From: Elusimicrobiaceae bacterium
GTDB lineage: Bacteria; Elusimicrobiota; Elusimicrobia; Elusimicrobiales; Elusimicrobiaceae
DNA length: 51,854 nucleotides
Direction: 5' to 3'
Assembly (NCBI GenBank): GCA_017961295.1
Contig: JAGCXL010000034.1
Coordinates: 1-51,854 of the forward strand
In this document: piece by piece, positions 13,680-44,426 of the stretch
How the letters are laid out: every line of letters starts with the position of its first letter
Position numbering within the stretch: the first letter of the stretch is position 1
The notes under the pieces: generated by a model
What the model saw: the letters and a program-made list of their open reading frames with translations, nothing else
Database searches by the model: none
Told to the model about the DNA's origin: nothing
Made by a program: the position numbers and the translations under genes

Positions 13680-14072
13680 ATGAAAAAGTTAGTTTTACTG
13701 ATTGTTTTAACACTCCCTACGTTAGGGGGCGCTCATAATTTAAGTGAGCCTGTTAACCGCGCGACTGCCAAAGCTATTGCCGCAACGGCGGTACAGGTGT
13801 ATGTAAAATTGGCTAAGCCGGTATATATGTCAGACGTTATGTTTCGCCCGGTACGTGGCAAAGATACGGTTATTCGGGTGGATTATAAAGAGCAAACCTG
13901 TATCGGCCGTTTGTCAGCCAAGAAAACGTACGTAGTGGTGCCCCTGTCGTGCGTAGCTGATGAAAAATACAAAGCTGCCAAAATAAATTTGGTCTTTGCA
14001 AACGGGCTACCTGTTCAAAAGACAGGCAACGCGGTAGAAAACCAAGGTAAGGTAGCTTATATCCGCCTTTAA
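13680..14072 (+). CDS. Small secreted protein, possible trypsin-fold remnant
   Basis: A 130-residue protein with a signal peptide (MKKLVLLIVLTLPTLGGA). I do not recognise the family with certainty. The only two cysteines of the mature part bracket CIGRLSAKKTYVVVPLSC, which has the spacing and hydrophobic pattern of the C-G-G-S-L ... T-A-A-H-C segment of trypsin-like proteases, but the catalytic His position would be Ser. No Asp/Ser catalytic block follows, so it would be a truncated, inactive barrel. It has its own promoter and a strong ribosome binding site and is followed by a bidirectional terminator. Confidence 0.6.
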   Translation: MKKLVLLIVLTLPTLGGAHNLSEPVNRATAKAIAATAVQVYVKLAKPVYMSDVMFRPVRGKDTVIRVDYKEQTCIGRLSAKKTYVVVPLSCVADEKYKAAKINLVFANGLPVQKTGNAVENQGKVAYIRL

Positions 14073-14126: not shown

Positions 14127-14157
14127 GCCCCTTTGTAACAAAGGGGCTTTTCTTTCT
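14127..14157. terminator. Bidirectional terminator between convergent genes
   Basis: GCCCCTTT (14127-14134) and AAAGGGGC (14140-14147) with a 5-nt loop. A T-rich tract follows on the plus strand (14148-14157) and a T5 run on the minus strand (complement of 14118-14122). It serves the secreted-protein gene at 13680 and the minus-strand metallopeptidase gene. Confidence 0.85.
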
Positions 14158-14848
14158 AATTTGTGGAATTTTGTTGTTGTGAAATCTCTTGCGTCGGGGT
14201 TTCGGTTGAAGTTTCTTGCGGTGAGGTATATTTCAGTTCCACCTCGGCAAAAATAGCGTCTTTGTTTTCATTAAGCCAACGGCGGTGCAGCTTATAGTCC
14301 GGGCAATACTGGGCCACCAGTGCCCAATATTCCTGCCCGTGATTCATGTAAGTTAAGTGGCATAACTCGTGCACAATTAAATAATCTTGTACGGCGCTTG
14401 GCATCTTCACAATCCGGTAGGAAAAATTGAGATTTTTTTTGCCTGAACAACTAGCCCACAAGGTTTGTTGGTCCTTAATAAAAATTTGGTTAAATTCCAC
14501 ACCCATTTTTTGGGCCCACGCGGTTGTTTTTTGCACCAGCGTCTCTTTGGCGTTATGCTTAAGCCAATCTGTTACAAGGAGCGACGGGTTATCTTGCGCA
14601 GTTTGCAAATACACATGGAAAATTTTACCGTCAAACGTTACGCCCGGTGCTTGGTCCGGCGTTAGGTACAGTTGGGCCGGGAATAGATCCCCATTATAGA
14701 GCACCTTGTTATCGTGGGCAACGGGGGCCGCGGGCTCACCCGGTTTGGTTTCTTTTGAAGCGGCCGCGCCAAACACTTCGGGGAGGTCTTTTTTAAGGCG
14801 TTCCAGGAATAGTTTTACGTCACTGATTACGGTTTGCGTGTCGGACAT
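14156..14848 (-). CDS. YgjP-like (DUF45) zinc metallopeptidase
   Basis: A 230-residue cytoplasmic protein of the YgjP/WLM-type metallopeptidase group. H160-E-L-C-H164 is the zinc-binding helix and the downstream NHGQEYWALVAQYCPDYK region gives the third-ligand area of the family. The conserved central part includes LWASCSGKKNLNFSYRIVKMP. The N-terminal 50 residues and the Thr/Gln/Ser-rich C-terminal tail look disordered and lineage-specific. There is no ribosome binding site before the ATG; a -10-like TATACAAT lies 6 nt upstream, pointing to a leaderless transcript. It is divergent from gcvT. Confidence 0.82.
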   Translation of the reverse strand: MSDTQTVISDVKLFLERLKKDLPEVFGAAASKETKPGEPAAPVAHDNKVLYNGDLFPAQLYLTPDQAPGVTFDGKIFHVYLQTAQDNPSLLVTDWLKHNAKETLVQKTTAWAQKMGVEFNQIFIKDQQTLWASCSGKKNLNFSYRIVKMPSAVQDYLIVHELCHLTYMNHGQEYWALVAQYCPDYKLHRRWLNENKDAIFAEVELKYTSPQETSTETPTQEISQQQNSTN

Positions 14849-14854
14849 ATCTAT

Positions 14855-14887
14855 ATTGTATAAAAAATGGCGTAAATATTATACAAT
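14855..14887. promoter_or_regulatory. Palindromic divergent promoter between YgjP-like gene and gcvT
   Basis: A perfect 9-bp inverted repeat, ATTGTATAA (14855-14863) and TTATACAAT (14879-14887), separated by 15 nt. Read in either direction, one arm gives TTGTAT as a -35-like element and the other gives TATACAAT as the -10. Each arm ends exactly 6 nt from a start codon (14848 on minus, 14894 on plus). It could also be a repressor operator; the symmetric placement favours a bidirectional promoter. Confidence 0.6.
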
Positions 14888-14893
14888 GAACTT

Positions 14894-15970
14894 ATGATAC
14901 ACACTTTGAGAAAAACCGCCCTTTGCGCCGCATGCGAAAAGGCCGGCGGTAAAATGGTAGATTTCCACGGGTGGCTACTCCCCGTCCAATTTGATAGTAT
15001 TATTGCCGAACATCACGCCGTGCGTAACGCATGCGGGATGTTTGATGTGTCCCACATGGGGCAAATCCGTATCGTCGGTAAAGAGGCGTTGCACCTCTTG
15101 CAATACGTCAGTTGTAACATCATTAAAAGCGGTGCCAACGAAGGGACTTATTTTCATATGCTGACCGAACAGGGTACGATTATTGACGATGCCATTGCCT
15201 TTTGCCTGGGGCAAGAAGAATTTTTAGTGGTGGTCAATGCCGCCTGTGTAGATGAAGATTTTGCCTGGCTTACAAAACAAGCTGCCGCTTTTAAGGTAAC
15301 CGTTACTAACGAAAGTGACCAGTGGGGTATGATTGCTTTGCAAGGCCCTACCGCTGTAGGGATTGCGGATAAAATTTTGCCCGGTGTAATAGATTTGCCG
15401 CGCTTTCACATTAAAGAAATTGAACTTTTTGGCGCCAAGGGCTATGTGACCCGCACCGGTTATACCGGCGAGGACGGCGTAGAAATTATGTTGCCCAACG
15501 GTCAAATTGAGGCACTTTGGAACGCGCTTTTAAAATTGGGAGTTAAACCGTGTGGCTTGGGTGCGCGCGACGTGTTGCGCTTGGAAGCGGGGTACCTGTT
15601 AAACGGGGCTGATGCCAACCAAACCAAAACGCCTTATGAAGCCAACTGTGGTTGGGTAGTAAAATTAACCAAAGAAAATTTCATCGGTAAAGCGGCCTTA
15701 GAGGCTAAAAAAGCGGCCGGTTTTAAGACGAAGTTAAAAGCGTTTAAGCTTAAAACCCCGGGTGTTCCGCGTGAAGGATGCAAAGTTTTTTACCAAGGCG
15801 TAGAAACCGGCGTGCTGACTAGCGGTACGTTTTCACCTTTATTTAAAGGCATTGCCGTAGGGTACGTAGCCAGTGAAATTGCCGTCGGGGCGGAGGTGGA
15901 AATAGAAATCCACGGGCGCAAAGTGCCGGCTGAAGTTGTCAAAACACCGTTTTATAAAAATAGAGTTTAA
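14894..15970 (+). CDS. gcvT: Glycine cleavage system T-protein (aminomethyltransferase)
   Basis: A 358-residue T-protein that takes the aminomethyl group from lipoyl-GcvH and makes methylene-tetrahydrofolate and ammonia. The N-terminus has the folate-binding pattern GGKMVDFHGWLLPVQF and FDVSHMGQIRI. TGYTGEDGVEIMLP and GARDVLRLEAGYLLNG are family signatures. The C-terminal barrel ends VKTPFYKNRV. There is no Shine-Dalgarno before ATG 14894, and a -10-like element ends 7 nt upstream, so a leaderless mRNA is likely. It is the first gene of the gcv operon. Confidence 0.95.
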   Translation: MIHTLRKTALCAACEKAGGKMVDFHGWLLPVQFDSIIAEHHAVRNACGMFDVSHMGQIRIVGKEALHLLQYVSCNIIKSGANEGTYFHMLTEQGTIIDDAIAFCLGQEEFLVVVNAACVDEDFAWLTKQAAAFKVTVTNESDQWGMIALQGPTAVGIADKILPGVIDLPRFHIKEIELFGAKGYVTRTGYTGEDGVEIMLPNGQIEALWNALLKLGVKPCGLGARDVLRLEAGYLLNGADANQTKTPYEANCGWVVKLTKENFIGKAALEAKKAAGFKTKLKAFKLKTPGVPREGCKVFYQGVETGVLTSGTFSPLFKGIAVGYVASEIAVGAEVEIEIHGRKVPAEVVKTPFYKNRV

Positions 15971-28367: not shown

Positions 28368-28829
28368 ATGAGTAAATCCCAAGTATATTCGCTTCTGCTC
28401 AAGCAATTGGAAGGCGTGCTATCCATGGAAACCGACCCTGTTGCCAATATGGCTAATATGGCGGCCGTTCTATTTAGCGAGCTGGAAAATTTGAACTGGG
28501 CCGGGTTTTATGTGCGGCGCGGGAGCGAACTGATATTGGGCCCTTTTCAAGGCAAACCCGCCTGTGTGCGCATTAAATTAGGTAAAGGCGTATGCGGGAC
28601 TGCAGCGCAAACCGGGCGAACACAACTTGTGGAAGACGTGCATCAATTTGCGGGGCACATTGCGTGCGACAGTGCCTCTAAGAGTGAAATTGTAATTCCT
28701 ATTTTTAAGAACGGCCAAGTGTGGGGCGTGTTGGATATAGATTCCCCCATATTGGCGCGGTTTGACGTAGAAGATCAAACTAGTTTAGAGCAGGCCGTAG
28801 AAATTTTTACCGCGCATACTTCCCTTTAG
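28368..28829 (+). CDS. msrC: Free methionine-(R)-sulfoxide reductase
   Basis: A 153-residue GAF-domain enzyme that reduces free methionine-R-sulfoxide. The three redox cysteines are in KPACVRIKLG, GKGVCGTAAQTG and GHIACDSASKSEIVIP; the surrounding NWAGFYV and VLDIDSP are family signatures. Length is typical. It diverges from the oxygen-sensitive oxidoreductase operon through overlapping promoters, which makes an oxidative-stress pairing plausible. Its stop overlaps the convergent transporter stop by 4 bp. Confidence 0.92.
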   Translation: MSKSQVYSLLLKQLEGVLSMETDPVANMANMAAVLFSELENLNWAGFYVRRGSELILGPFQGKPACVRIKLGKGVCGTAAQTGRTQLVEDVHQFAGHIACDSASKSEIVIPIFKNGQVWGVLDIDSPILARFDVEDQTSLEQAVEIFTAHTSL

Positions 28830-37729: not shown

Positions 37730-37829
37730 AAAACGTCTGTTTATACATAATGGTTGTTTTTATGCTAGGACAGCTTCGAAGTAAATAATTAATTTGAAGG
37801 TTACATATTCTAAAAAGGGAGATAAATTA

Positions 37830-40800
37830 ATGAACAGGAAACAGGGTAAAAGTACGTTATCCAAAACGATGGCGTATTTGATAAGCTGTGCAATGTTAGT
37901 AAGTAACGTAAGCCCGGCTTACGCAGCTTCTGACATTACCATTGATGATTTCGGGTCCGGCTCGCTTCATTATATCTCTGGTTATGCAAATACCGACTAT
38001 TTGTATGCCCGGGATGATGGATCGGCCTCCCCAAGCGATTATACACAAAGGTTTTCAAACTGGGTAGGTGACCCGTTTGACGATACGTTAACGATGAACG
38101 GCGGCGCATTGAACACCTATGGCTTAACGCAAAACGGTGCTTTGTATGCCAATAGCGGCAACATCACCGTAAATAGCGGACAATTAAACATTGCAAGCGG
38201 TTCCTACATCAGCGATGCTGCTAATTTAAGCCTGCTTTCCGGTTCTTTGTTGGTGCTTACGGGTGGTAATGTAACCATCAATGCAGGAGATTCTATTAAT
38301 TCCGGTGCTAACATTACAGCTTTTGACGGTAACTTGTCATTTACCGGTGGAACGCACTACATCGGCAGCGGGTCTAGTATCGCCAGCAATCTGAATATCA
38401 CAGACGGTACGGTTGAAGTGGCGAATGCCAATTCGTTACAAACCGACTTTAGTAACGCGGGCAATCTTACACTGGCCGGCGGTACGCAAGCCCATGCTAT
38501 TAGCGGAACCGGGAATGTGGCGATTACCGGAGATGTTACGAACACCGGTACTATCAGCCAAACGGATCTGAGCAACACCAGTACCTTTACTAACAACGGC
38601 ACTGTAAATGCAAATTTAACCAATGCCGGCGTATTGAAAGGAACCGGAAATATCACTACCAAAACCGGGGCATCGTCTAACACGGATGCTCTCTCCCAAA
38701 CGAACTTAACCAACAATGGTACGTTTGACAACAACGGACAAATTACATTAGCGGGCAGCTTAACTAACAATGAAGCTGCCACTTTTAACACCAATGCGGG
38801 GTTATTAGCTTCTGCAAACGGTGTTTCTAACGCAGGTATTTTGAATTTTACCGGTGGTACCAATACGAACGTAGTTACCGGGGACGGTACCCTCAATGTT
38901 ACGGGGGATTTAGAGAACCAAGAATCTATCTCTCAAAAAGATATTACCGTTGCAAGCGGTAAAGTAGTTACCACCAATGCTTCCAATATGACCGCTAGCG
39001 ATGCCATTACCAACGATGGTATTATTAACTACACGGCGGGTACCACTGCTAATATTATTAATGGTAACGGGCGCATTGATGTTACCGGATATGTAACCAA
39101 CAGTGGCGATATTGATCAAACCACTGTAAGCAACAGCGGTGTGTTCACAAACAATGGTACTGTAGATGCGAAGCTCGTCAATACAAATGCAATTGAAGGG
39201 ACGGGTTCTATCACTACCAAAGCCGGGGTTTCCTCCAACTCGGGAACGATTGAACAAGATTCTTTAACCAACAACGGTACGTTTGACAACAACGGCCATA
39301 TTACTCTAACGGGTGCTTTGACCAACAACAGTACCTTTAATACCCATGCGGACCTAGTTTCCGCGGCGGGCGGTATAGACAACCAAAGTGCTTTGAATAT
39401 CACCGGCGGTACAAACAAAAACGTGATTACCGGCGGTGGAACTACCTCTTTTACCAATAACGTTACCAACAGCGCTGCTATTACGCAAGCATTGGTTAAC
39501 AACAGTGGTAATTTAACGAACAACGCGCTTATTACTGCGGACGTTGTGAATAGTGGCACGTTGACTAGTAACGGGGCCAATATTAACGGGGCTATCGGAA
39601 ACACCGGTTCTTATGTTATCACCGATGGCAATAACGCCAATGATATTATCGGTGCGGGCGGTACAACTTCTATTTTGGGGGATACCACCAATACCGGTAC
39701 CATCATGCAAGAATCGTTGAAAATTGCCAACAGCGGTAGTTTTACGACTGATGCGGAATCTGTAGTAGCATCCGTTACCAACGATGGCAGATTGACGTGG
39801 AACGCGGGTGCCGCTAACGAGAATGTGATTAACGGTTCTGGTCAATTAGACATTACCGGTGGTGATATTGTCAATAGTGCTTCTATTAAACAAAATAAGA
39901 TTAAAATCGCTGGCGGTTCTTTAACTAGCGACGCTGACTTATTGGCTTCTACCAATGGTATTACCAACAATGTAGCGGACGGCTTAACCCTAACGGGTGG
40001 CACAAACTCCAACGTGATTGACGGTACGGGTTCCATGTCCATTTCTGGGGATGTAACGAACCAAGCCGCAATCGGACAAGATTCTATTACCGTCAGCAAC
40101 GGTACGTTAACCACCGCGGCCGACTTACTTACCGCCGCGAACGGCATTACCAACAATAGTGCCATTTCTTTCACAGGTGGTGACAACAATAATGAAATTA
40201 CCGGTACCGGTACTACACTCATTGATGGAACCGTACAAAACTTGGCGGACGTGTATACCAAAGTCCAGGTCAATACGGGTGCCCATTACGGTACTGCTAC
40301 CGACGTGCAAGCCCAAATAGACAACCGCGGCACCACGGACCTTATTGATGTCGACATCTTAGCCGGAGGTAAGATTTCCGGTACAGGTACTACCAACATC
40401 TTAGGGGATACAGTTAACAACAACAGCATTTCCCAAAGTGCCTTGAATATTGCTGCGGGTGGTTCCTTAACCACTAACAGCCAAAGTGTTGAAGCAGCCG
40501 TTACCAACGACGGAAACTTAATTTGGAATGCAGGTAACTCCAATGACAACGTCATCAGCGGTAGCGGTGCTTTGAATATCGCCGGCGGAAACATTACCAA
40601 TAATGCCGCTATTAGTCAAGGCAGCATTAGCATTACCGGCGGTAGTTTGACCTCTAATGCTGACTTGCTTGCTTCCGTTGCAGGCATTACCAATGACACT
40701 GCTTTAACCCTCAATGGCGGTACTAATACCAACGATATTACCGGTACGGGTGCTTTGACCACACAAGGCGAAGTAACCAACCAAGCTGCTATTGACCAAA

Positions 40801-43800
40801 CCACTCTTATCAATGATGGTACTTTGCTCAACGCAGGAACCATCAAAGCCAATGTAACCAACAACGGTAATTTGGCCAGTGATGCGGACGATATTGAAGG
40901 GAATATCGCCAACGAAGGTACGTATGCAATTACGGACGGCGATAACACCAACAATATTACCGGTGAGGGTGATTTACAGATCCTGGGCAAAACTGCTAAC
41001 AATGCAACCATTCACCAAGATACTATTACCATTAATACAGGTGCTACATTGGTAGCCGCAAATATGGGTAATATTACGACCTCTACGAAGATTGATAATG
41101 CCGGTGTTTTTGAAATGCAAGGCGGTACCAACAGTAACGTGATTGAGGGTGACTTCGGTGCATTAAAAGTAACTGGAGCAGTAACCAATACCTCTGGGGT
41201 AAACATCAAGCAAGATAATTTAGATATTGCCACGTTGGGTAGTTTGACGGCGGATGCGGATGACTTGAAAACCGTAAACGGTATTACCAACGCGGGTGCT
41301 TTGACTTTGGGGAACGGTACCACCGCTAATGCGATTAGCGGAAGCGGTAAGTTAACGATTGCTTCCGGTGCGGATGTGACCAACACAGGAAACATTGATC
41401 AAAAGTCCTTAACCAATAACGGGACCTTTACCTCTAAGGCCGACCTATTGGCCTTTGCCAACGGTATTGCTAACAGCAATACGTTGAACTTAACCGGTGG
41501 TACGAATAACAATGTCATTACGGACAATACGGGTACTACCAACTTTACCGGTGATGTTATCAACAACGGTGCCATTGAGCAAGCCGCTGTTACTAATGAT
41601 ACCGGCGTATTAACCAACAATGCCGCTATTGATGCTGCTTTTACCAATAATGGTGGGACGGTCAATAACGAAGCAGCCATTACCGGTGCCATTACCAATA
41701 CCGGCACGATTAACTCTACCGCAGACAACTTGAACGGTGCCGTAACAAACGACGGTACGTTGAACGTCGCCGGCGGTTTAGTAAAAGGTGACATCACCAC
41801 TACGGTGACGGACAGTACCATGAACATTACCGATAACTTGATCAACGATTATAGCATTGAACAAGCTACGGTGTATAACACTGCCCACTTTACCAACAGA
41901 GGTGCGATTACAGCTGACCTTGACAACGAAGGGATGATTGATAATACGGCTGCTATTGTGGGTAACATTACCAACCACAACAACGGTACGATCGACTCTT
42001 CCGCTGACTATTTGCAAGGGCCTATCGCCAACGATGGTACGCTTAATATCGCGGGCGGAACGATGCAAGATGTTGTTACGGGTTCCGGCGAAATGAACAT
42101 CATCGATGACTTGAACACCAATGACTTTACCATTGAACAAGGCAGTGTAACCAACGATGCGGTCTTAACTAATACTGCTGCTATTACCGCAACTACCATT
42201 ACCAATAACGGTACGATTAAGGGTAAAGCGGCTGATTTAATAGCCTCTGGCGGTATTACAAATGACGGAATTTTAGAATTTAATGCAGCCTCTACGGGCG
42301 TCAGCGCAATCAGCGGCGCCGGTAACGTAGAAGTAACGGCTAACACTACCTTGACGGGTAGTAATACCTATACGGGTACGACTTTGATTGACGGCGCTGA
42401 CTTAACGATTGCCGGTCAAAACAATATCGGCTCCGGGGATGTATTGTTCGCCAACAACGGCTTGTTAATCGCGGCAGGTTCGTTGAGTAACAACTTGCGC
42501 GGCAACGCTGCTACGGAAGATGTTCTCGTACAAAACGACGCTGCTTTAACCTTAAACGGTACGATTGGTTCCGCGGCTGATTTCCGTAAATCAGGTGCCG
42601 GAACTATGACCTTGGCTATGGCTTCCAACAACTACACAGGAAGTACCTATGTAGATGAAGGAACCTTAGTAGGAAATACGCAAAATATCAAAAATACTGT
42701 CAAAGGTGCTGCTGATACAACGGTTGAATTTACCGATACTACCGATGCGGTACTGAACGAAATTGACACTCTGGGCAATTTTGTCCAAAGTGGCAGTGCT
42801 GTTTTGAACATATCCGATAATGCCTTTAGCGCAAAACAAGCGGATATTAACGCCGGTACTTTTGCTGCTAACCGTGATGTAACGGTTACTACTGCGTTAA
42901 ACGTGAACGACGGTGCCACCTTGCGCGGTAACGGAAATATTTCCGGTACAGTAAATGTAAATAACGGCGGGACCATTGCCCCCGGCAATAGTATTGATAC
43001 GTTGACAATTACGGGGGATGTAAACTTCGCTTCCGGTAGTACAACGGCTATTGAAATTAATGAAACTCCTGCAAGTGATAAATTGGTCATTACAGGTAAT
43101 GCCAATATCGCTAGCGGAGCTAATTTAGCAGTATCCAACGAAAACGGAAGATACTTTGAATGGAAGTCGTTTGAAATCGTCGATGCCGGTAACGTGGCGG
43201 GCGAATTTACGTACGACGGTACTATTACCGACTACGATGCCAGCCGTATTGACGTAGAAGTAGATTACAGTGATCCGACAAAGGTCGTTTTATTGGCTAA
43301 ACGTAAAGCCACCGATTATACCGGAACGACCAGCTTATCGCGCAACCAAAGCGAAGTAGCTCGTGCGATAGATGCTGTTTCTACCGGTTATGAAGGTGAT
43401 ATTACCAATGCCTTGTTGCAATATGAACAATTGGGTGGCTTAAATCCGCAAGGGGTTACACTTATTAACGCGGCATCTACCTTGCAATCTGCCTTAGATG
43501 ATACGGACGGCGTGTTGTATGCCAATAGTGCGTTGACTCCGTTGTTTAATGCTAAGACGGCTCATGTATATGACCGTATTGCTAAACGCAATCCCTCGGC
43601 CGGCAAATGCTCTACCTGCCATGATAACGTGTGGGCGGAGTATTATAGCCAGTACGATAAAGTATATGCAGATGCCAATTCACCGCGCTTTACCAATAAC
43701 ATGACCGGTGTATTAGTAGGGTATGATCGTTCTTCCGATGAGGCACTCTTAGGTGTGTACGGCGGTGCCGGTAAGAGCGATTTGCGCCAACAAAACGATG

Positions 43801-44426
43801 CAATGGATATTGATGACGTATCCCTGGGTATTTACGGTGGATACAGACCGGGCAATTGGGTCCTCAAAGGAACCTTGTTCGGGGGTTATCAAACCTATCA
43901 TGGTAAACGTCGCATTGATTTCATGGCACGTAATGCGGAAGGTAAATATCATGGTTTGAATATGGCCTTAGATTTGGAAGGCGGTTATAACATCGCCGTC
44001 TATGACTGGCTCAACCTCAAACCTTTTGCCGGAGTATTGGGTAACTACACGCACTTAGAATCCTTTACGGAAACGGGTGCAGGTGCCCTTAACTTACACG
44101 TAGAAAGCAAAAACCAGTTCAACACACAAGCCCGTTTAGGGGTGCAGTTGGAAGGAAAAATCGGCAAGAGATTCAACTGGTACGGTTCTGCCGCTGTTAA
44201 ACAGTTCATCGGCGGTGATTATGCCAAACTGCATATGTCTTTGGACTTGCCCGGAACACGCATGGAAATTATCAGTGCTGAGCTGGGCCGCACCTACTTT
44301 AGCGGTCAAGTGGGCGTAAGTTATGCGCTTACCAACCACTGGACGGTCTTTGGTAACTTAGACACCGGTGTGAACAACAAGTCCGCTAACTGCTACGGTA
44401 ACGTAGGTTTAGCATATGCGTGGTAA
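37830..44426 (+). CDS. Giant repeat-containing type Va autotransporter
   Basis: A 2198-residue surface protein. The signal peptide covers about 1-34 (MAYLISCAMLVSNVSPAYA). The passenger is Asn/Thr/Gly-rich beta-helix: about 17 degenerate repeats at about 215-1500, then autotransporter-associated strand repeats (TGSNTYTGTTLIDGA, SNNYTGSTYVDEGTLVG) and a PGNS motif near 1715. A helical linker, then C1927-S-T-C-H1931, leads into the C-terminal barrel (about 1932-2198) ending in Trp. An in-frame TTG at 37794 precedes the signal; I use ATG 37830 with AAGGGAG upstream. Likely adhesin or surface layer; function unproven. No protease motif is seen. Confidence 0.9.
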   Translation: MNRKQGKSTLSKTMAYLISCAMLVSNVSPAYAASDITIDDFGSGSLHYISGYANTDYLYARDDGSASPSDYTQRFSNWVGDPFDDTLTMNGGALNTYGLTQNGALYANSGNITVNSGQLNIASGSYISDAANLSLLSGSLLVLTGGNVTINAGDSINSGANITAFDGNLSFTGGTHYIGSGSSIASNLNITDGTVEVANANSLQTDFSNAGNLTLAGGTQAHAISGTGNVAITGDVTNTGTISQTDLSNTSTFTNNGTVNANLTNAGVLKGTGNITTKTGASSNTDALSQTNLTNNGTFDNNGQITLAGSLTNNEAATFNTNAGLLASANGVSNAGILNFTGGTNTNVVTGDGTLNVTGDLENQESISQKDITVASGKVVTTNASNMTASDAITNDGIINYTAGTTANIINGNGRIDVTGYVTNSGDIDQTTVSNSGVFTNNGTVDAKLVNTNAIEGTGSITTKAGVSSNSGTIEQDSLTNNGTFDNNGHITLTGALTNNSTFNTHADLVSAAGGIDNQSALNITGGTNKNVITGGGTTSFTNNVTNSAAITQALVNNSGNLTNNALITADVVNSGTLTSNGANINGAIGNTGSYVITDGNNANDIIGAGGTTSILGDTTNTGTIMQESLKIANSGSFTTDAESVVASVTNDGRLTWNAGAANENVINGSGQLDITGGDIVNSASIKQNKIKIAGGSLTSDADLLASTNGITNNVADGLTLTGGTNSNVIDGTGSMSISGDVTNQAAIGQDSITVSNGTLTTAADLLTAANGITNNSAISFTGGDNNNEITGTGTTLIDGTVQNLADVYTKVQVNTGAHYGTATDVQAQIDNRGTTDLIDVDILAGGKISGTGTTNILGDTVNNNSISQSALNIAAGGSLTTNSQSVEAAVTNDGNLIWNAGNSNDNVISGSGALNIAGGNITNNAAISQGSISITGGSLTSNADLLASVAGITNDTALTLNGGTNTNDITGTGALTTQGEVTNQAAIDQTTLINDGTLLNAGTIKANVTNNGNLASDADDIEGNIANEGTYAITDGDNTNNITGEGDLQILGKTANNATIHQDTITINTGATLVAANMGNITTSTKIDNAGVFEMQGGTNSNVIEGDFGALKVTGAVTNTSGVNIKQDNLDIATLGSLTADADDLKTVNGITNAGALTLGNGTTANAISGSGKLTIASGADVTNTGNIDQKSLTNNGTFTSKADLLAFANGIANSNTLNLTGGTNNNVITDNTGTTNFTGDVINNGAIEQAAVTNDTGVLTNNAAIDAAFTNNGGTVNNEAAITGAITNTGTINSTADNLNGAVTNDGTLNVAGGLVKGDITTTVTDSTMNITDNLINDYSIEQATVYNTAHFTNRGAITADLDNEGMIDNTAAIVGNITNHNNGTIDSSADYLQGPIANDGTLNIAGGTMQDVVTGSGEMNIIDDLNTNDFTIEQGSVTNDAVLTNTAAITATTITNNGTIKGKAADLIASGGITNDGILEFNAASTGVSAISGAGNVEVTANTTLTGSNTYTGTTLIDGADLTIAGQNNIGSGDVLFANNGLLIAAGSLSNNLRGNAATEDVLVQNDAALTLNGTIGSAADFRKSGAGTMTLAMASNNYTGSTYVDEGTLVGNTQNIKNTVKGAADTTVEFTDTTDAVLNEIDTLGNFVQSGSAVLNISDNAFSAKQADINAGTFAANRDVTVTTALNVNDGATLRGNGNISGTVNVNNGGTIAPGNSIDTLTITGDVNFASGSTTAIEINETPASDKLVITGNANIASGANLAVSNENGRYFEWKSFEIVDAGNVAGEFTYDGTITDYDASRIDVEVDYSDPTKVVLLAKRKATDYTGTTSLSRNQSEVARAIDAVSTGYEGDITNALLQYEQLGGLNPQGVTLINAASTLQSALDDTDGVLYANSALTPLFNAKTAHVYDRIAKRNPSAGKCSTCHDNVWAEYYSQYDKVYADANSPRFTNNMTGVLVGYDRSSDEALLGVYGGAGKSDLRQQNDAMDIDDVSLGIYGGYRPGNWVLKGTLFGGYQTYHGKRRIDFMARNAEGKYHGLNMALDLEGGYNIAVYDWLNLKPFAGVLGNYTHLESFTETGAGALNLHVESKNQFNTQARLGVQLEGKIGKRFNWYGSAAVKQFIGGDYAKLHMSLDLPGTRMEIISAELGRTYFSGQVGVSYALTNHWTVFGNLDTGVNNKSANCYGNVGLAYAW
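38476..42330 (+). repeat. About 17 degenerate protein-coding repeats in the autotransporter passenger
   Basis: Units of roughly 60-80 residues share the core G-G-T-N-x-N-x-I-x-G-x-G-x-L-x-I-x-G-D-V-T-N-x3-I-x-Q, often followed by LTNNGTF or ADLLASANGITN. The repeats are strong at protein level but diverged in DNA, so they are old rather than freshly expanded, apart from some closer pairs such as the units at about 38710 and 39270 (NNGTFDNNGxIT). Confidence 0.8.

Follow-up and report, generated by a model that had tools for sequence, protein, structure and literature searches.

Introduction

The closest described relatives of the arrangement considered here are the TA-led or −10-adjacent leaderless genes. 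In these genes a TANNNT box lies 6–7 bp before the start codon, there is no Shine–Dalgarno (SD) sequence, the −35 element is weak or dispensable, and the class is found genome-wide alongside SD-led genes (Zheng et al. 2011, PMC3160421; Zhong et al. 2025, PMC12340547). Transcription starts about 7 bp after the −10 element, and tests in Deinococcus radiodurans showed that −10 boxes adjacent to the start codon drive leaderless mRNA (PMC12340547). In the parts of these accounts drawn on here, the class is known from Deinococcus-Thermus and Actinobacteria, its consensus is TACACT, and nearly one-third of D. radiodurans genes are leaderless. Zheng et al. already described orthologues that had changed from one signal, SD or TA, to the other, and they view bacterial leaderless genes as likely ancestral remnants (PMC3160421). 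As far as the excerpts consulted go, the literature pairing "Elusimicrobi" with "leaderless" contains no apparent description of a leaderless class in the phylum, and the section of PMC10783764 that concerns Elusimicrobia and Endomicrobia lists them only for their anti-SD type.

Two further systems invite comparison. Bidirectional promoters built on −10 symmetry share one −10 element between divergent transcripts, and the usual distances between the two starts are 10, 18, or 23 bp (Warman, Grainger and others; PMC12825309). Two polymerases are probably not present together; in E. coli, mutual exclusion is described when one direction is strongly activated, and separate divergent promoters are not counted in the class by these authors. 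In the lysG/lysE region of M. tuberculosis, an inverted repeat lies in overlapping divergent promoters beside a regulator gene, whose product binds it; lysE has one leaderless transcript (PMC5648196).

The ygjP/gcvT Intergenic Region

The window is the whole stretch of 51,854 nucleotides that was analysed, from a gut bacterium of the Elusimicrobiaceae. The features of interest in it are the following.

14156–14848, minus strand: ygjP, a YgjP-like metallopeptidase gene, 230 aa (Pfam PF01863, E 9.8e-41)
14846–14848, minus strand: ATG of ygjP; transcription start predicted at 14848 from the 7-bp rule
14855–14860, minus strand: ygjP −10 box, which reads TACAAT on its own strand and ends 6 nt before the ygjP ATG
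14855–14887: palindrome ATTGTATAA-N15-TTATACAAT, two −10 regions back to back
14861–14881: the 21 bp separating the two −10 boxes, into which the upstream contacts of the two promoters must fit
14882–14887, plus strand: −10 box of gcvT, TACAAT, 6 nt from the gcvT ATG
14894–14896, plus strand: ATG of gcvT; transcription is predicted to begin at 14894
14894–15970, plus strand: gcvT, aminomethyltransferase, 358 aa (Pfam GCV_T PF01571, and PF08669)
from 15974: gcvH, the next gene after gcvT (Pfam GCV_H, PF01597)

The two genes are divergent, with ygjP running leftward from 14848 on the minus strand and gcvT rightward from 14894 on the plus strand. The palindrome arms are identical 9-mers in inverted orientation, ATTGTATAA at 14855–14863 and TTATACAAT at 14879–14887, with 15 nt between them. 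The coordinates bear out the initial annotation in that both ATGs stand 6 nt from their own arm; for ygjP and gcvT alike, the A of the ATG is 7 positions past the last base of TACAAT. The same annotation had stated that neither start has an SD sequence, and this agrees with what we find: no GGAG, GAGG, or AGGA lies within 18 nt upstream of gcvT, and none was seen upstream of ygjP when that sequence was read by eye. Each ATG is the first ATG, GTG, or TTG after an in-frame stop, so no common start codon further upstream is possible for either gene. With a TANNNT-type box 6–7 bp upstream and no SD sequence at either start, ygjP/gcvT is, by its sequence, a further case of the known leaderless −10-adjacent class. 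It differs from the described members in that two such promoters stand back to back, a layout also seen at other gene pairs (see below).

Nine perfect inverted repeats with arms of at least 9 and a spacer of 8–22 occur in the window, against 2–7 in 20 Markov resamplings. The sequence TATACAAT is present in two copies, both within the ygjP/gcvT palindrome, against 2.4 expected in the window. As a bare repeat, the palindrome is unremarkable when set against chance; what lies beyond chance is the placement, since both starts have a −10-like box at a distance of exactly 6 nt. A sigma-70 two-hexamer scan of 2001 bases reported 4 sites, where shuffled sequence gave 2.6, and did not list the ygjP and gcvT promoters. 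No Rfam match at gathering score was obtained for an RNA element or riboswitch before gcvT, in the segment 14000–19500 of the window. An RNA element in the palindrome itself was rejected, since a transcription start at the ATG would leave the palindrome untranscribed.

We propose that two housekeeping-type promoters very probably stand back to back here, each with its −10 box exactly 6 nt before an ATG, and that both mRNAs are leaderless. RNA polymerase would start on the A of each ATG, and ribosomes would initiate on the 5′-terminal AUG. The palindrome would then be a by-product of two similar boxes that face opposite ways. With 21 bp between the boxes and 46 bp between the predicted starts, there is probably room for a single polymerase at a time, much as at the bidirectional promoters, and polymerases would exclude one another at this locus. 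Overlapping polymerase sites thus predict competition or exclusion, rather than the co-control of ygjP and gcvT that had been suggested. The distances also set the locus apart from the class of bidirectional promoters with a symmetric −10, to which the initial annotation had assigned it: that class shares one −10, and the common distances between its starts are 10, 18, or 23 bp in the portion of PMC12825309 drawn on, whereas ygjP and gcvT have separate boxes.

The −10 Box and the Proposed −35

The consensus of 41 leaderless sites in the host genome (see the next section) consists of an A/T-rich stretch from −20 to −15, a G at −14 in 51%, and then TAYAAT, whose third base is T in 56% and C in 27%. 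The six bases that follow end in T in 95% of these sites, and then comes the ATG. The host consensus is the reason why the −10 box is taken as TACAAT and not as TATACA. This choice is confirmed by relatives that lack the C and have TATAAT in the same position. The known TA-led consensus is TACACT, whereas the consensus here is TAYAAT.

The initial annotation had given each palindrome arm a double role, as the −10 of one gene and, through TTGTAT, as a −35-like box for the other. The first role holds, as TACAAT lies 6 nt before each ATG. The second does not. TTGTAT matches TTGACA at 3 of 6 positions. Its distance from TACAAT is 20 bp here and 19 bp in most relatives that have the palindrome, and its distance from TATACA is 18 bp; the spacing is wrong for a −35, and leaderless promoters of the host carry little −35 signal. 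Matching to TTGACA is weak in the 41 host sites at all spacers tried, from 13 to 23. The best spacer, 17 bp, gives a mean of 2.07 matches out of 6, with at least four matches in 7 of the 41 sites. A slight −35 preference is visible in the leaderless promoters of the host and counts against the proposed explanation. In the proposed explanation, each promoter would be composed of a TAYAAT box and the A/T-rich stretch just upstream of it, with no clear −35.

The Predicted Leaderless Class in the Host Genome and in Elusimicrobiales

The host genome assembly has 897,454 bases in 38 contigs and is 66.65% complete. Spacings of 0–39 nt before the start were surveyed in 41 sources, the window and 40 further stretches (578,763 bases, with 519 open reading frames called mechanically, so that the choice of start is approximate). 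A box was defined as a TA...T hexamer with at least five of the six TATAAT letters. Such a box lies exactly 6 nt before an ATG in 41 cases, whereas the 39 other spacings average 6.9 cases and none exceeds 13 (Poisson p ~1e-18). GTG and TTG starts show no peak at 6 nt, with one case each. The 41 cases amount to about 8% of the 519 mechanical reading frames, a far smaller share than is described for D. radiodurans. Of 387 first-ATG starts, 199 have an SD-like motif 4–16 nt upstream, whereas a control position downstream gives 16; the SD system is thus the main one in this host and leaderless genes are a minority; an SD-like motif near a candidate start is also present in 5 of the 41 reading frames with a 6-nt box.

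The same signal extends across the order. In 61 Elusimicrobiales genomes, TATAAT-N6-ATG has 2904 matches against 625 for the reversed pattern, and the control with N4 has 1332 against 890 reversed. The N6 pattern exceeds its own reversed control in all 61 genomes and exceeds N4 in 59; both exceptions belong to the other family, which contributes 24 genomes, and the N6 signal is not equally clear in all genomes of the order. The genome-wide enrichment that characterizes the leaderless −10-adjacent class is thus found both in the host and in the order.

These counts bear on a more conventional explanation, in which both genes have ordinary leaders transcribed from more distant promoters and the boxes are an A/T-rich coincidence. 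The region is indeed A/T-rich, and leaderless starts are predicted here from sequence. On the other side, no SD sequence is within reach of either start, a distant promoter for gcvT would sit at or inside the divergent ygjP, and the 6-nt spacing recurs throughout the genus and shows genome-wide enrichment. We regard distant promoters as hardly credible. The claim that both mRNAs start at the AUG gains from the conserved ygjP spacing (see the next section) and from the genome-wide 6-nt class, which point to back-to-back leaderless promoters.

ygjP and gcvT Leaders in Relatives

The genus table has 48 rows, in which near-duplicates of one species are possible: 33 of the 37 genus genomes and 15 further loci. 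G005, G006, G014, and G025 have no row of their own, as the gcvT start was not found whole on a contig; L135, which is in the table, appears to be the G025 locus. The initial annotation had looked to conservation of the palindrome and of both 6-nt spacings, and the outcome is uneven. The ygjP −10 lies at 6 nt in 45 of the 47 rows with a ygjP start (none was found in G032) and at 7 nt in the other two, G034 and L114, whereas the gcvT spacing is 6 nt in only 7 of 48 rows and no more than 14 of them carry the palindrome.

In other lineages, ygjP is not beside gcvT and has the upstream form TTTTTATARAAT, which the ygjP arm of the window resembles. Read by eye, the distance to the ATG is 6 nt in five of six such loci and 7 nt in L174. 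The 6-nt spacing across the genus and in other lineages indicates that leaderless ygjP is old and independent of gcvT.

The gcvT gene is a different case. Its 6-nt form without an SD sequence is found in G000, G017, G018, G026, G009, L103, and L104; the other 41 rows have a leader of 18–28 nt with an SD sequence, and no intermediate between the two forms occurs in the 48 genus rows. The sequence TTATACAAT is upstream of gcvT in 45 of the 48 rows. Among the 14 palindromic rows, gcvT is leaderless in 3 and SD-led in 11. Thirteen loci lie outside the genus. Of these, L142 and L145 are leaderless at gcvT (TATAAT, 6 nt, ATG), L136 and L139 have the same box followed by GATTTT and then a longer leader with an SD-like motif, and L138 has a 19-nt leader without an SD motif as defined; the script found no gcvT box in 4 of the 13.

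A GcvT tree, built on gcvT alone, contains 51 rows (49 of the 80 named loci, the window, and G017). The leader state changes three times on it, and the leaderless genes fall into a window clade of five, L115 (G018) alone, and L142 with L145. A single clade for the six leaderless genus rows is rejected (p-AU 2.5e-5). The G018 spacer, GAACTT, is identical to the 6-nt spacer of the window, and the tree places G018 elsewhere; from these sequences, G018 gcvT may owe its leaderless form to exchange between species and not to an independent loss.

The outlying lineages mostly bear a leader, which would make leader loss the simpler direction. In that direction, gcvT would have become leaderless in the window clade through loss of a short SD-bearing leader, with the −10 kept, beside a ygjP that would have been leaderless since ancient times.

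The Palindrome across Genomes

One copy of the palindrome per genome is found in 10 of the 61 genomes, all of this genus and all at the ygjP/gcvT locus. On the tree, the palindrome changes three times in 37 scored rows. The gap from box to box is 20–21 bp in palindromic rows and 29–1191 bp in the others; for L104, L113, L133, and L143 the distance used is inexact by a few bases. In G026 (L034/L102), about 1.2 kb separates the promoters, and both boxes and both 6-nt spacings are kept. G017 is the nearest relative, with a GcvT 99% identical, and has no palindrome; there the ygjP box reads TATAAT, and 29 bp separate the two −10s. The DNA of G017 and the window is 91–98% identical in the first 600 columns of gcvT and 75–79% in 14701–14892, and an exchange of promoter forms between species is a possible reading of the two sequences.

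An operator or a single two-way element should be kept whole. The arms persist singly, and the earlier view of the palindrome as the working unit is not supported. According to that view, the region is one symmetric bidirectional unit, in which each arm serves as −10 for one gene and −35 for the other and the genes are co-controlled. Its arms are identical 9-mers in the window and reach 11 bp in most palindromic relatives, and the tight 20–21-bp spacing recurs in 14 of the 48 genus rows. Yet the gcvT arm is still present, with no partner, in 31 of the 34 rows without the palindrome, and the ygjP −10 is at 6–7 nt in all 47 rows with a start. TTGTAT, 19–20 bp from TACAAT with half of the TTGACA letters, and the 46 bp between starts, against the much shorter distances in the described shared −10 promoters, speak against it as well. 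A symmetric unit is thus improbable.

An operator for a repressor or a LysR-type activator, after the model of lysG/lysE, is a still weaker candidate to which we give very little weight. The inverted repeat, with arm centres 24 bp apart, does lie between divergent genes, and the M. tuberculosis locus, as presented in the portion of PMC5648196 drawn on, is a precedent for overlapping divergent promoters around such a repeat. There, however, the repeat is a regulator site beside the regulator gene, whereas the ygjP/gcvT repeat is two −10 boxes, and by Pfam neither neighbour is a regulator gene. The −10 boxes account fully for the arms, either of which may be lost or kept without the other, and the unit is not kept when the promoters move. 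A search for further copies that might reveal a regulator site, as the initial annotation had advised, gave only the single copy per genome in those 10 genomes and none elsewhere; a repeated site or regulon operator was rejected on this ground.

Other Predicted Back-to-Back Leaderless Pairs

Two predicted leaderless promoters back to back also occur at other loci. With a pattern of TAYAAT 6 nt from an ATG on both sides and a T before each ATG, 34 divergent pairs with gaps of 5–35 are found in 28 of the 61 genomes, and 23 with gaps of 36–66 in 21 of 61; the reversed pattern gives 0 in both ranges. Twenty-eight loci (L182–L209, e.g., L184:1097–1154) were translated and represent several unrelated gene pairs. 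Ten proteins were named by Pfam and unscanned partners by BLAST likeness. The pairs include CsgG-like with HAD hydrolase, C_GCAxxG_C_C with CinA, alpha/beta hydrolase with DUF2157, nucleotidyltransferase with a DUF2157 relative, and SmpB with radical SAM; there is also a Sir2 gene. The gap is 27–29 bp in 20 of the 28 loci with gaps of 5–35, among them five unrelated pairs and the ygjP/gcvT of G017. A preferred gap of 27–29 bp between divergent leaderless boxes is not claimed, as gaps of 36–66 are also common. In the incomplete host genome, only ygjP/gcvT matches the pattern.

With these findings, the leaderless −10-adjacent class gains a further phylum, Elusimicrobiota. Switching between SD-led and leaderless forms is as such already known, and the gcvT series is a single-locus instance of it: the same −10 box precedes a gene that has an SD-bearing leader in most species and lacks one in a few. 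Such a natural series could allow the cost or benefit of leaderless translation to be measured. If the direction given above is true, gcvT would be a recent leaderless gain, in contrast to the ancestral-remnant view of Zheng et al. (PMC3160421). It is tempting to go further, if only speculatively, and to suggest that genes of Elusimicrobiales have switched repeatedly between SD-led and leaderless forms by exact leader loss, with the −10 held in place and the 6-nt spacing selected, and that back-to-back pairs act as polymerase-competition switches, here between the glycine cleavage operon and ygjP. We consider this broader scheme rather doubtful.

Other Features of the Window

The reading frame at 28368–28829 on the plus strand has TACAAT exactly 6 nt before its ATG and is, from this spacing, probably a third leaderless gene of the window. 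An open frame of 2210 aa with a TTG start extends from 37794 to 44426 on the plus strand. Between the 3′ ends of the reading frame at 13680–14072 and ygjP, a terminator-like hairpin of 9 pairs occupies 14127–14147, and the sequence downstream of it on the plus strand is T-rich.
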